DNA of 64,000 nucleotides from Candidatus Binatia bacterium (lineage in GTDB: Bacteria; Desulfobacterota; Binatia; UBA1149; CAITLU01). The notes under the pieces were generated by a model. It saw only the letters and a program-made list of their open reading frames with translations, did no database searches and had not been told where the DNA came from. Made by a program: the position numbers and the translations under genes. Shown piece after piece: positions 14,025 through 18,961 of this stretch. The stretch spans positions 102,868 through 166,867 of the forward strand of contig DASXOZ010000070.1 of NCBI GenBank assembly GCA_036493895.1, written 5' to 3'. Numbering within the stretch: position 1 is the first letter of the stretch; the number at the start of each line of letters is the position of its first letter.

Positions 14025-15329
14025 TCAGCGCCCCGCAGCGATGATGGAGCTCAGGTCGAAGTACTCCTCACGGGTGCCTTCCTTGTCGCCGAGGTCGATG
14101 TACCAGCCCTGCTCGCCGGGGAAGCGCGCGCTCGGCAGCGCACAGAACGTCGCGTGCTCGAGCTGGATGTCCACCATCGTGATCGACGGGTTGTAGCTCA
14201 CGTCGTAGTTGAATCCGTACTTCGCGCCGGCGATCGGCTGGTGCGCGTACATGAAGTTGTTGATCCACACTTTCCACAGCTCGCCGGCCTGGTCGTAGAT
14301 GTCGGTGTACGGGATGCGGTAGCTGTCCTGGTCCAGGTAGATCACGCGCTTGGAGTACGCGTACTGCGGGAACTTGGCCTTGCCTTCGACGATCCAAACC
14401 TTGCGCGGCTCCCACGCGCTGTCGTGCAGGAAGTCGCCCGACGGCTTCTGCCACTTGACCGGGATGCCGTCGGAATGGAATGAGCCGAGCACCGTCCTCT
14501 CGCCGAGGTAGTGCCAGTCGAACCAGCCGGGATTGCCGGCATAGCCCGCGTAGCTGTCCTGGTCGGTGTCCTGGCCGAACAGGGCGTCCGAGCGCTGCGC
14601 GGACGACAGGCGCCTGACGCGGCGCAGCTGCGGCAGGTAGAGCCACGTGTCGTCCTGGCGCGTGTAGTCCGCATAGCGGTTCGCCGTCGTGCCGGTGCCC
14701 TTCAGGTCGAAAGGCTCGATCAGCGGATACAGCGCTTCCTTGTAGCGGGCGCCGTCATGGTTCGGCATCTCGGGCTTGGGGTCGACCAGCGTGCGCTCGC
14801 GGAAGTAAAGGCGGCGGATGTGGTCGATCAGGAAGTGGCGCTCGACGTGCACGGGGTCGCCGTTCTTGCCGACCGCACCGGTGTCGCAGTCGAAGTTGCG
14901 AAGATCGAGGTCGTCCACCGCGATCGCCGCGTTGAAGTTGAACATGTGCTTGGCGCCGGCCTGCTTGTCGTTGGGATCGACTTTCGGGAACGGCAGGCCC
15001 GCGACGTGGTTCTCCAGGTGCGTCGCGTCGGGAGCCAGCGTGACCTGTCCCGAGTACTTCTCGGTGGCAGCAGCGAATTCCGGCGGATAGTCGACTTTCC
15101 TGTACGCGCTCACCTTGATCTTCGCGCCGCGATCGACGATCCACTTGAGAGAGCCGCCGAGAAGATCGCCGTACTGGTCCACGTTGGTGCGGTCGATCAC
15201 GGTGCCGGTAGGGGGGACGGCCGGCTCGGCCGCCAGCGACGGCGCGGCCGAAGCGGCCAGGAACACGGCACACAGAAGAGCGGCGGTCAGGCGAAGCGAT
15301 GGGGACTGGGTCAAGGTCCGGGACTTCAC
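14025..15329 (-). CDS. DUF1329 exported protein (outer-membrane lipoprotein-sorting-like fold)
   Basis: A 434-residue protein with a signal peptide (LRLTAALLCAVFLAASAAPSLAA). It has the features I associate with DUF1329: GTVIDRTNVDQYGDLLGGSLKWIVDRG, HMFNFNAAIAVDDLDLRNFDCD, and many Tyr/Trp/Asp residues in the C-terminal half (YLPQLRRVRRL, DWHYLGERTVLGSFHSDG). The family often accompanies MMPL/RND permeases, YCF48 proteins and DUF1302; here the permease and YCF48 genes lie about 20 kb away and DUF1302 is not seen. It starts with GTG after a strong GGAGGT site and has its own terminator, so it is probably monocistronic. Function unestablished; periplasmic hydrophobic-ligand handling is a guess. 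Confidence 0.88.
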   Translation of the reverse strand: MKSRTLTQSPSLRLTAALLCAVFLAASAAPSLAAEPAVPPTGTVIDRTNVDQYGDLLGGSLKWIVDRGAKIKVSAYRKVDYPPEFAAATEKYSGQVTLAPDATHLENHVAGLPFPKVDPNDKQAGAKHMFNFNAAIAVDDLDLRNFDCDTGAVGKNGDPVHVERHFLIDHIRRLYFRERTLVDPKPEMPNHDGARYKEALYPLIEPFDLKGTGTTANRYADYTRQDDTWLYLPQLRRVRRLSSAQRSDALFGQDTDQDSYAGYAGNPGWFDWHYLGERTVLGSFHSDGIPVKWQKPSGDFLHDSAWEPRKVWIVEGKAKFPQYAYSKRVIYLDQDSYRIPYTDIYDQAGELWKVWINNFMYAHQPIAGAKYGFNYDVSYNPSITMVDIQLEHATFCALPSARFPGEQGWYIDLGDKEGTREEYFDLSSIIAAGR

Positions 15330-15506
15330 GGATGGGCTACCTCCGGTTGGATTGACACCGCGACTGCGGTCGCCATCCCGCCCCTCTAGCCGAAACCCGG
15401 CCGCGAAGGAACAGGGTTTCTCGATTGCTCCATCCCGATGTCGCCCGGCGCCGCAGGCGGCCCGGCCGGCCGGTATCGACGCCGCCCCGGGAGCCAGCCG
15501 GGCCCG

Positions 15507-15938
15507 TTATGACGAGACCAGCCGCACGAAAAGGCTTGCCCAAAGCAGGGACAGCACGGCGTTGCTGGCGAAGTAGAGCCGGAAGCGCATCAGCACGGTG
15601 TTCGACGTCAGGTGCACGTAGCTGTGGGCATAGCGCAGAGCGACGTACGCCCACGCGCAGCCGATCATCCACGCGTTCGATTGATGGGTCACGTACGTGA
15701 GGATGACGATGACGTAGAACAGCACCGGCATTTCGAACAGGTTGATGAAGTGCCGCGTCACGACACGGATGTGGTCCGGCTCCTCGCCTCCCTGGTAGAG
15801 ACTGTAGAAGCGCGGGTCGATCTGGCCGCTGCGCACCGCGCCGAACCGCGCCCTGCCGAGGCGCATGAAAACGACTGCCGTCAGCGCGAACATCGCGAAC
15901 AGCGGGAAGAGGACCTGGTTGGAGGAGGCGTCAGGCAT
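15507..15938 (-). CDS. MAPEG-family membrane protein
   Basis: A 143-residue protein with four hydrophobic helices and the MAPEG-like segments FMRLGRARFGAVRSGQID, HFINLFEMPVLFYV and ALRYAHSYVHLTSNTVLMR, where Glu, Asn and Arg residues line the glutathione or lipid site in known members. Prokaryotic members of this type are largely uncharacterised. The ATG at 15938 has GAGAGCAGG upstream; the open frame extends further to 16190 but overlaps the divergent secreted-protein gene. Confidence 0.85.
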   Translation of the reverse strand: MPDASSNQVLFPLFAMFALTAVVFMRLGRARFGAVRSGQIDPRFYSLYQGGEEPDHIRVVTRHFINLFEMPVLFYVIVILTYVTHQSNAWMIGCAWAYVALRYAHSYVHLTSNTVLMRFRLYFASNAVLSLLWASLFVRLVSS

Positions 15939-16065
15939 GGTGGGCAAAACCTGCTCTCTGCCCGCGGCCAAGGCAAGGAACCGGCGCCGTGCTCCGGGGC
16001 ACACCGCTTGACCGAACCGCGGCCCCCGGCGTAAATTCCGTCGGCTTTCGGGAGGGATACCGACG

Positions 16066-17097
16066 ATGAGATTCGCTGCGCTTGCAAACATTCTGGCCGT
16101 TCTTGGCGCCCAGGCGGCGATTGCCGCGACAATACCCGCGGAGTTCGTCGTCGAGGCGAAACCGCTCAAGAGTGCGACCGCAACCGACACGGTTACCGCC
16201 AGTCTCTACTCCGATTCCGCGTGCACCTCGCTCGTCGCAACGACGGGTGCCGTTGCATTGCAGGATGTCGAGCTCACCGAGAGCCTGAAGCCATTCAAGG
16301 CGAAATCGGCCACCGAAAAGCCGCCGGGCACCGTGCGCATGCATTTCACCTTCAGCACTTCGCCGCCGTCGGGCGACCTTTTCCTCTCGGTCACGGGCAG
16401 CGTAGCGGGAGCGGTCGTAGGCTATCCGTCGGCGTGCCAGCCGCAGCAGCCCGTAAGCGACGCGCTCGCGGTCATCTGCCAGCAGCTCGCGGGTACGCCC
16501 GCGTGCGACCTGGCGTCCACGATCCGAAACGTGGCGGCCACGCCGGTCAAGATTTTCTCGGTGACGAACAGCGGTTCCGGCGGGTCGTTCGGAAACCGTG
16601 CCGCCACGACCGCCACTTGTGCCGCGGCGGCTGTGAGCCAGGGCCTTTCGTGCACTTCCACGCTTGCGCTGCTGGCGTACACCGGCGGCGACGACATCGC
16701 GTCGATGCCCTCGAACCACGGTGTGCCATCGGGCGTGCCGATCGTCGCGGCCGGATCGCTCACCAGGATCGCCAACGACTGGAATGATTTCCTGGACGGA
16801 ACCTGGAGCACTTGCCTCGGGGGATTCTGCGATCCGAACGGTCCGGCGCCAGCCGGCCTCTCTCTCGCCGACGGTATCTTCCTGACTGGCGCGAACAACG
16901 ATGGCACGGTCGACGCGGCCAACAACTGTACAGACTGGAGCTCGACCACCGGGACCTTCAGTATTGGTAGGAATGACTGTTACGGTGCGAGTGGGTCATT
17001 GTTCTGCAACTCCGGACAGACGCTGGCGACAGCTGTCTGCAACAATCCGCTGTGCTGTGGAGTTCCGCAGGGCGCGATGCTCTGCCTCTGCTACTAG
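16066..17097 (+). CDS. Secreted protein with endostatin/lectin-like C-terminal domain
   Basis: A 343-residue exported protein with a signal peptide ending AQAAIA. An N-terminal beta-rich part (about 22-140) is followed by a Cys-containing stretch. The C-terminal domain (about 210-343) reads YTGGDDIASMP, RIANDWNDFLDG, DGIFLTGANNDGTVDAANNCTDWSS, CNSGQTL, ending in four Cys. The NC-DW-S plus late CN pattern recalls bacterial collagen-NC10/endostatin-like or DUF1554-type lectin folds; this is inference. GGGAGG precedes the ATG. The gene ends just before the truncated tRNA copy at 17185, so it borders the inserted segment. Confidence 0.75.
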   Translation: MRFAALANILAVLGAQAAIAATIPAEFVVEAKPLKSATATDTVTASLYSDSACTSLVATTGAVALQDVELTESLKPFKAKSATEKPPGTVRMHFTFSTSPPSGDLFLSVTGSVAGAVVGYPSACQPQQPVSDALAVICQQLAGTPACDLASTIRNVAATPVKIFSVTNSGSGGSFGNRAATTATCAAAAVSQGLSCTSTLALLAYTGGDDIASMPSNHGVPSGVPIVAAGSLTRIANDWNDFLDGTWSTCLGGFCDPNGPAPAGLSLADGIFLTGANNDGTVDAANNCTDWSSTTGTFSIGRNDCYGASGSLFCNSGQTLATAVCNNPLCCGVPQGAMLCLCY

Positions 17098-17184
17098 GCG
17101 AGACTTCGCGGCACGTGCGAACCAGCGAGCGGGAGATCCTGGGCCGTGGCGTCTGGATCTCGCCGCTCGCCAGCTCGCGGCTCG

Positions 17185-17228
17185 GGCGCGGCCGGAGGGA
17201 TTCGAACCCCCGACCTACGGGTTCGAAG
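17185..17228 (-). repeat. Truncated tRNA-Arg 3' fragment, distal att-like copy
   Basis: 44 bases identical to 18886-18929, i.e. the 3' part of the tRNA-Arg(TCG) gene from the anticodon loop to just past the discriminator. The 5' half of the tRNA is missing here and the sequence diverges immediately after the anticodon-loop bases, so it cannot make a tRNA. The two direct copies are 1,701 bases apart (start to start). This is the arrangement left when an integrase uses the 3' end of a tRNA as attachment site. Confidence 0.85.
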
Positions 17229-17759
17229 TCAGATCAGGACGATGACGAAACGTTGGTCTGACGAGCGGTTGCGTGTGAGCACGCGCACTTAGCGTTTTGC
17301 AGACTTCCACCGGCTTCGATCACTTTCGACTACTTTCGGTCACCAACTGACACCACTACTGCACCAGCTCGCGGCGGCACGTGTGCTGCGTGCTCGCCGA
17401 GCTGGTCAACGTGGACGCTCCGCCCACATCGTTGCGGCTGCGTAGAGCGACGCAGCGAGCCGAGCCCAGGACGACGGTGCAGAGGACATGGTGAGCGTTG
17501 CTGGCCGGCGGCAAGGGCGGGAGGCGAAGGGGACGCGGGGCCGCTGCTCGCTGACACCGGCCGACCCGATGCCAACCCCACCCCGTCGGCACCCGGGGTG
17601 AACACCCCCAGCGACCTCGATTCTGAGCCTGAAGGCTCTCGGATAATCGCGCAGCAAAAATGTAGTCGATTTATGCACCGGGCTCTTGCGGCCTGGACAC
17701 GATGGCTCTGGGCACCGATCCGACTCGCTTCAGCCGTGACCGGGGCCAACCATGGGGGT
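17229..17759. other. Non-coding left part of the tRNA-bounded insertion
   Basis: 531 bases between the truncated tRNA copy and the DUF1566 gene. I see no convincing gene and no integrase or excisionase. Base composition is visibly less GC-rich around 17229-17350 than the surroundings. A short perfect hairpin (CACCCCG/CGGGGTG, 17579-17600) is the only structure noted. It may contain the promoter of the gene at 17760, but no clear -35/-10 pair stands out. Confidence 0.5.
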
Positions 17760-18734
17760 ATGCGAAAGACACTCACAACCGTTGCCATTGCCGCCATGAT
17801 TCTGAGTGAAGGCGTGGCTCTGGCTTCTGACCGGGCGCTCTCCTGCGAGGCTGCCAAGCTCAAGCTCGCGGCAAAGTACGGCTTGTGCCGACTTTCGGCC
17901 GAGTCGACGGCAACAAAGCTGAGCGAGTCTCCCGACTATTCAAAGTGCAGCCTAGCAAAGTTCTCGGATGCGGAGGCGAGAGCCGTCGGCCAGTGCCCGA
18001 CTCTCGACGACCAGTCCGCCATTCAGATCTTCATGGACGACTTGACGGTACGCATGGGGGACTGGTTCGCCGGCAGCGGCGACCTCACCATCACCTGCCC
18101 GGCCGACCTTGTGACCTGCCAGTCGGACCTCGCGGCCAGCCTGTCTGACTGCGTGGCAAGCCTGCGCCCGCCGCTGAGCAGCGGCCAAACTGCCTGCTAC
18201 GATTCCTCGGGAACTGTGATCGCCTGCGGCGGCACAGGACAGGACGGCGAGTTGCAGAAAGGGGCGCCGCACAGTTTCACCGATAACGGCGACGGAACGA
18301 TCACGGACAACACGACGAGTCTGATGTGGGAAAAAATCTCGGACGACGGGACGATCCACGACCTGGACAACTACTACAGCTGGACTGACGCGTTCGCGGT
18401 AAAAATCGGAACGCTCAACTCGCAGAATTTTGCCGGCCACAACGATTGGCGCCTGCCAAACCTTCCGGAAATTGAGTCCATTCGGAATATCGGCGGTATG
18501 AGTCCTGCCACATTCTCGGTGTTCCAGACCGGGTGCGCGCCGGGTTGCAGTGTCTTGACTTGCAACTGTACGCTGGTGGACGCTCGGGGCGGGCTCTTCT
18601 GGACCTCCTCGACGTTCATGAACTCCGAGGATGCGTGGCTCATGCTCTTCGACACCGGGCGATCCATCGGAGAAGGCCGATCGAGCTATTGGTACAACAT
18701 GCACAACGTTCGTGCCGTTCGCGGCGGCCTCTGA
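17760..18734 (+). CDS. Secreted DUF1566 (Lcl C-terminal-like) protein with N-terminal Cys-rich helical domain
   Basis: A 324-residue exported protein whose signal peptide ends VALASD. Residues about 25-110 hold a helical Cys motif (C-x2-AKLKLAAKYGLCRL...SPDYSKC...GQCP) of a kind I associate with deltaproteobacterial secreted proteins. The C-terminal DUF1566 domain has DNGDGTITDNTTSLMWEK, WRLPNLPEIESI, LFWTSSTFMNSEDAWLM and NVRAVRGG, with extra Cys between. The frame opens upstream at 17598, but the signal peptide fixes the ATG at 17760. It is the only gene between the two tRNA-Arg copies. Codon use looks less GC-biased than neighbours, consistent with import. Role unknown; surface adhesion or ligand binding is a guess. 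Confidence 0.82.
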   Translation: MRKTLTTVAIAAMILSEGVALASDRALSCEAAKLKLAAKYGLCRLSAESTATKLSESPDYSKCSLAKFSDAEARAVGQCPTLDDQSAIQIFMDDLTVRMGDWFAGSGDLTITCPADLVTCQSDLAASLSDCVASLRPPLSSGQTACYDSSGTVIACGGTGQDGELQKGAPHSFTDNGDGTITDNTTSLMWEKISDDGTIHDLDNYYSWTDAFAVKIGTLNSQNFAGHNDWRLPNLPEIESIRNIGGMSPATFSVFQTGCAPGCSVLTCNCTLVDARGGLFWTSSTFMNSEDAWLMLFDTGRSIGEGRSSYWYNMHNVRAVRGGL

Positions 18735-18885
18735 GCCGTATCGCGACGGACGGCTGCGCCGTGCGGCTCTCCGTCGTGTCGGCGGCACCATTGCCTCCAG
18801 CTTCGCGCGCCCTCGCAGCCGCAGCGCCATGCCCAACGGGCGCAGGCTACCCCGGGGCCACCGCCTGGATCGAAAAGGGAAACCT

Positions 18886-18929
18886 GGCGCGGCCGGAGGG
18901 ATTCGAACCCCCGACCTACGGGTTCGAAG
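18886..18929 (-). repeat. Proximal att-like copy inside tRNA-Arg
   Basis: The 44-base counterpart of 17185-17228, here forming the 3' part of the intact tRNA-Arg gene. Identity stops in the anticodon loop on one side and two bases past the tRNA 3' end on the other. Confidence 0.85.
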
Positions 18930-18961
18930 CCCGACGCTCTATCCAGCTGAGCTACGGCCGC
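18888..18961 (-). tRNA. tRNA-Arg (anticodon TCG)
   Basis: 74 bases fold as a cloverleaf. Acceptor stem GCGGCCG/CGGCCGC is perfect, the D stem is GCTC/GAGC, and the anticodon loop CTTCGAA gives anticodon TCG (reads CGA). The T arm has GTTCGAAT with a GGGGG/CCCTC stem containing one G-T pair. The top base pair of the anticodon stem is a T-T mismatch. The discriminator is G and CCA is not encoded. Its 3' part is duplicated at 17185-17228. Confidence 0.93.

Follow-up and report, generated by a model that had tools for sequence, protein, structure and literature searches.

A 1.7-kb unit between tRNA-Arg(TCG) and its displaced 3' part is probably an internally deleted, CIME-like remnant of a tRNA island

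A cis-mobilizable element (CIME) is an element whose integration and transfer genes have been lost and whose attL and attR have been retained (PMC5704250). In Dehalococcoides, ssrA islands that have no integration module are flanked by the RNA gene on one side and a repeat of the gene's 3' end on the other (PMC3146451). For the tyrosine-integrase islands in tRNA genes that are treated by Islander, the filters require an integrase gene inside the island and a length of 2-200 kb (PMC4383910).

Within the window analysed here (the whole 64-kb stretch of DNA, which comes from a metagenome-type assembly of one genome, the junction being known from the assembly alone), we found a unit for which the CIME is the nearest named kind. 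At the sequence level its integration genes are lost and its attL and attR are retained. Like a CIME, it keeps these sites around a cargo gene, has no integrase, targets the 3' part of a tRNA gene and has integrase-bearing relatives, but it has lost one arm, which makes att function doubtful, and it lies without an adjacent tandem helper element. Among published systems, the Dehalococcoides ssrA islands lacking an integration module (PMC3146451) come closest, being likewise integrase-less units between an RNA gene and a repeat of its 3' end, with sister islands that carry an integrase; they involve a serine recombinase, tmRNA and tandem arrays, whereas the present case involves a tyrosine recombinase family, a tRNA and a single unit. 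The islands of Islander share with the unit a tRNA, a displaced 3' fragment in the right order and orientation, and the anticodon-loop site A (PMC4383910), but the unit falls outside both filters, having no integrase and measuring 1,701 bp, less than 2 kb. It is a well-documented but otherwise ordinary case of a familiar element type.

The only tRNA that ARAGORN detected anywhere in the window is tRNA-Arg(TCG); a displaced 3' fragment of it lies on its 3' side in the same orientation, which is the structure of a tRNA island. The first-pass annotation had reported a perfect 44-bp duplication 1,701 bases apart, and this was confirmed: 17185-17228 and 18886-18929 are identical at 44/44 bp (GGCGCGGCCGGAGGGATTCGAACCCCCGACCTACGGGTTCGAAG), with a start-to-start spacing of 1,701 bp. 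The tRNA gene that it had placed at 18888-18961 was rightly recognised, while its coordinates omitted the CCA. The repeat covers the CC of CCA, the acceptor 3' strand, the T arm, the variable region, the 3' anticodon stem and the 7-nt anticodon loop; the last 7 bp, TTCGAAG, make up the entire loop and identity stops at the 5' edge of the loop, in agreement with the earlier statement that it ends in the anticodon loop. When 17228 was joined to 18930, one tRNA-Arg(TCG) was predicted, and the fragment side alone yielded none. Fragments scattered over unrelated loci had been named as evidence against an insertion; a DNA search of the 4.5-Mb genome found no further copy of the 44-bp fragment, and the only other partial matches to the tRNA end of the query were two stretches of ~73 bp, the length of a tRNA gene, at 73-79% identity. 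Given the 44/44 identity and the lack of another genomic copy, chance origin of the repeat is excluded. The features of the unit are collected in Table 1.

Table 1. Features recognised in and at the ends of the 1.7-kb unit (window coordinates)
Feature	Position	Strand	Evidence or remark
attR: displaced 3' part of tRNA-Arg(TCG), spanning CC of CCA through the 5' edge of the anticodon loop	17185..17228	-	44/44 identity to 18886-18929
attP-type arm of the element	17229..17420		83% identity over the first 173 bp to the C17 (tRNA-Val) arm; ~80% over 132 bp to the G001 (tRNA-Arg(TCT)) arm
CACC repeat pair within the arm; putative integrase site of the arm type	17351..17365		Spacing 11 bp (nearly all relatives: 12 bp); role judged solely from position
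US module, conserved ahead of Lcl_C genes on islands	17569..17761	+	Found by profile search (window hit: E 5e-37)
Lcl_C (DUF1566) gene, 324 aa, cargo, probable signal peptide	17760..18734	+	PF07603, E 5.7e-20; open frame
DS module: gene end, downstream spacer and truncated start of a further US module	18703..18872	+	Profile search, E 2e-39
TGGATCGAAAAGGGAAACC, directly ahead of the tRNA; possible remainder of an integrase 3' tail	18866..18884	+	Resembles the integrase tails of G011:C353, G003 and G001
attL: intact tRNA-Arg(TCG), CCA encoded	18885..18961	-	ARAGORN; joined flanks give a single tRNA-Arg

Read inward from the fragment, the unit consists of an arm of ~190 bp, the US module, one Lcl_C gene, the DS module and a truncated US start, followed by the tRNA. 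The single secreted-protein gene noted earlier is the Lcl_C gene, the N-terminus of its product resembling a signal peptide when judged by eye. Profile models of the US and DS modules, built from the island copies, located further US copies in contig C17 of the same genome (three), in contig C15 (one) and in G001:C8, a contig of a genome of the same genus (one), and the two other DS copies sit behind the two Lcl_C genes of C17. Among the loci compared, both modules were confined to island-borne copies and were absent at the non-island Lcl_C genes of the genome itself. The statement that no integrase lies between the repeats held as well, with neither an integrase ORF nor a PF00589 match in or beside the unit, and the paired CACC repeat of the integrase side is absent at 18701-18885. 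The last 19 bp before the tRNA (TGGATCGAAAAGGGAAACC) may be a leftover of an integrase gene: their summed alignment score against integrase tails was reached by 0.75% of shuffles and by 0.15% of random 22-mers from the window, which for so short a match is suggestive only. Base composition and codon bias had been proposed as checks; the GC content is 62.9% in the unit vs 67.2% in the window, and the Lcl_C gene has a GC of 60.7% and a GC3 of 77% vs a GC3 of 84-90% in four flanking genes. The lower GC and GC3 are consistent with foreign origin, a weak sign when taken alone.

The fragment-side end of the unit matched contig C17 at 73% identity over ~430-460 bp in the DNA search of its own genome. 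There the arm adjoins a 3' fragment of tRNA-Val(TAC), and the intact tRNA-Val lies 5,376 bp away, delimiting a 5.4-kb island with the order fragment, arm, US, Lcl_C, DS/US, Lcl_C, DS/partial US, excisionase-like gene, integrase, tRNA. The two Lcl_C genes have the same flanking modules as the window gene, the HTH_17 gene likely encodes the excisionase, and the tyrosine integrase (415 aa; PF00589, E 3.5e-32) is encoded by a gene whose 3' end overlaps the intact tRNA-Val. When the proteins of the C17 island were scanned, only the integrase and the HTH_17 gene matched integration/excision families; transfer genes were not recognised on this island and there was no sign of a conjugative parent. Inside the island ARAGORN also called a tRNA-Gly; as this call falls on the DS spacer, it was considered spurious. 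A second complete island (10 kb) was found in G001:C8, where the arm stands beside a tRNA-Arg(TCT) fragment with the intact gene 9,977 bp away. Its sequence is 78% identical to the unit over the first ~185 bp, its integrase gene overlaps the intact tRNA-Arg(TCT), and the product is 80% identical to the C17 integrase.

The unit shares with these two islands the arm, the US module, the Lcl_C cargo and the position of the att site in the anticodon loop, where the break reads AAG/T in all three (3/3); the two islands differ in keeping the integrase (C17 also the excisionase-like gene) and the integrase-side arm, and in their target tRNAs. More widely, the family-aligned integrases end in sequence inside or against the tRNA 3' half, and integrase relatives adjoin tRNA-Val, Met, Phe, Gly and others; a contig scan found such relatives at other tRNAs in several phyla and identified no autonomous tRNA-Arg(TCG) version. 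Given the shared arm, the AAG/T break and the integrases beside several tRNAs, one integrase family with one arm type has used different tRNA genes, and the window unit bears its arm. Near the integrase gene end, a paired CACC repeat with a 12-bp period was found in C17, G001, G003, L122 and L123; in G017 the spacing is 11 bp, and in G011:C353 the repeat is visible only under a relaxed pattern. The 11-bp spacing in the arm of the unit had been considered as proof of decay, an argument weakened by the equal spacing on the integrase side of G017. The unit thus has the conserved arm after the fragment and the anticodon-loop break of the C17/G001-type family, and lacks the integrase gene overlapping the tRNA and the arm repeat there. 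Since these two are missing, we filed it as a deleted derivative and not as a full family member. Two other affiliations were set aside: a phage-satellite origin was not adopted, integrase relatives in viral contigs showing <=42% identity and the scanned C17 proteins matching integration/excision families only in the integrase and the HTH_17 gene, and the US and DS modules look like the spacers of a tandem Lcl_C array rather than integron-like cassettes.

Empty sites, which the first-pass annotation had proposed to seek in related genomes, were present in six of them (G001, G002, G004, G005, G006 and G007), all of them showing just one tRNA-Arg and, over the stretch examined, no second fragment; tRNA-Arg(TCG) and DinB stand close together in relatives. 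The fragment-arm junction of the unit, searched in 148 genomes of the class, occurred only in the window and in two contigs of G009, where the arm that follows is different and only partly similar. These contigs, C52 and C63 (L057, L066), hold two tRNA-Arg(TCG) fragments, each followed by the TCAGATCAAGACGA junction and both near contig ends, and are probably tandem islands at this tRNA. As to age, the fragment carries 0 mutations in 44 bp (95% upper bound 0.068 substitutions per site), while the tRNA-Arg of the window and that of G001 differ at 5/44 positions (88.6% identity). The insertion is therefore, judging from these sequences, probably younger than the split between the window species and G001, barring gene conversion.

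The same tRNA has received another insertion in G011, which belongs to another family of the order. There, on contig C146 (L049, 3693-11081), a 7.3-kb insertion in tRNA-Arg(TCG) has a partial tRNA fragment, arm repeats at both ends and no integrase, and its cargo comprises a NACHT protein (PF05729, SNaCT13), an AAA ATPase and an MBL-fold protein. It may be a defence island, and trans mobilisation may be likelier for it than for the window unit.

The unit is a genuine site-specific insertion, and its entry into the anticodon loop through an integrase has good support. We propose that a small island from the family of the 5.4-kb tRNA-Val island entered tRNA-Arg(TCG) at the anticodon loop, carrying a tyrosine integrase, an excisionase-like gene (HTH_17) and Lcl_C cassettes in tandem. 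The 3' tRNA half brought in by the island would have restored the gene, and the original half would have been displaced to 17185-17228. Later, an internal deletion would have carried away the excisionase and the integrase together with its arm site, as well as a second cassette if there was one, so that a single complete Lcl_C cassette was left between attL and attR. This reading follows from the order of the modules, since the unit keeps the order of C17 through the first DS and the truncated US and then reaches the tRNA directly, with the excisionase, the integrase and the integrase-side CACC repeat missing. An integrase-bearing version of the island at tRNA-Arg(TCG) was seen in no genome; the deletion junction would lie where the truncated second cassette breaks off, with perhaps ~19 bp of integrase tail left ahead of the tRNA. 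Internal deletion after integration is the most probable explanation for the present form of the unit, which would now most likely be immobile, with a functional tRNA and one secreted-protein gene kept. The earlier description as a shrunken genomic island is thus borne out by the integrase-bearing relatives, one at tRNA-Val in its own genome and one at tRNA-Arg(TCT) within the genus, by the empty sites in six relatives and by the lack of scattered fragments, and we regard the unit as probably an internally deleted, immobile, CIME-like remnant of a tRNA island.

The first-pass annotation had also suggested an element mobilised in trans, that is, a non-autonomous mini-island (MITE- or CALIN-like) with both cores and one arm that borrows Int/Xis from a C17-like island. 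The same genome does hold a related integrase together with a similar arm (83% over 173 bp), the att repeats are perfect, so that the insertion is not old, and G011 provides an integrase-less insertion with arm repeats at both ends in the same tRNA. However, the arm repeat on the integrase side, present in most of the integrase-bearing relatives sampled, is missing from the unit, the C17 island in tRNA-Val has another core, and the right end of the unit is an arbitrary point in a truncated cassette spacer and not a conserved element end. It is also single-copy in its genome, with the junction in only one other of the 148 genomes of the class, beside a different, partly similar arm. An integrase acting in trans had been proposed as a search target: the genome holds nine PF00589 matches, none within 60 kb of the unit, and the one closely related integrase belongs to the tRNA-Val island of C17. 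Mobilisation in trans thus found no positive support and is unlikely. That the unit is a minimal, cargo-only element, with one Lcl_C cassette, tRNA att sites and a single arm, still moving through a sister-island integrase of other tRNA specificity, we consider decidedly improbable.

Replication slippage or ordinary recombination can in principle duplicate part of a tRNA gene and give such fragments without any integrase, but the same arm adjoins the fragments of two further tRNAs, both next to an island with an integrase, the break falls at the identical place in the anticodon loop, and scattered fragments are lacking; this origin is hardly credible. The insertion may instead exceed 1.7 kb, if ORF 16066-17097 belongs to an earlier island that stood in tandem at this tRNA and has since lost its outer fragment. 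The start of the MAPEG gene lies ~25 bp from the tRNA in G001 vs ~1.24 kb from the fragment in the window, relatives hold only weak, partial matches to the 343-aa ORF, and G009 has two tRNA-Arg fragment-arm junctions, but 14900-17180 shows no sign of a second tRNA fragment, and we hold a larger insertion to be doubtful, though conceivable. It supplements the deletion explanation and does not replace it. The product of this ORF, which is located between MAPEG and the tRNA fragment and absent there in G001, looks secreted, contains Cys and gave no Pfam or PHROGs match.

The 1.7-kb unit, which carries no integrase, stands in one genome beside other stages of shrinkage, namely the complete 5.4-kb island and a 6.1-kb island with a different arm and a short integrase ORF. 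Standard island finders drop units of this kind, which have no integrase and are too small. The arm and att position common to islands in different tRNA genes offer a handle for finding further integrase-less remnants.

The genome holds 21 Lcl_C domains above the Pfam cut-off, and an Lcl_C domain lies within 12 kb of four of the nine integrase matches, where about one is expected by chance (binomial ~0.01, our own arithmetic). As a modest statistical statement, Lcl_C is a recurrent cargo near integrases in this genome. The 6.06-kb island of G000:C15 (L116, 7586-13730) occupies tRNA-Phe(GAA) and has a short integrase frame (166-198 aa) and an Lcl_C region with an in-frame stop; its arm is unlike that of C17 and its US module is shared with it, as if cassettes pass between island types. 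In G000:C16 (L109, 709-12540), an 11.8-kb tRNA-Thr(CGT) island carries another integrase type next to the fragment, together with an Lcl_C gene and, judged by eye, a primase/AAA-like region, an aroD-like gene and an FRG-like protein.
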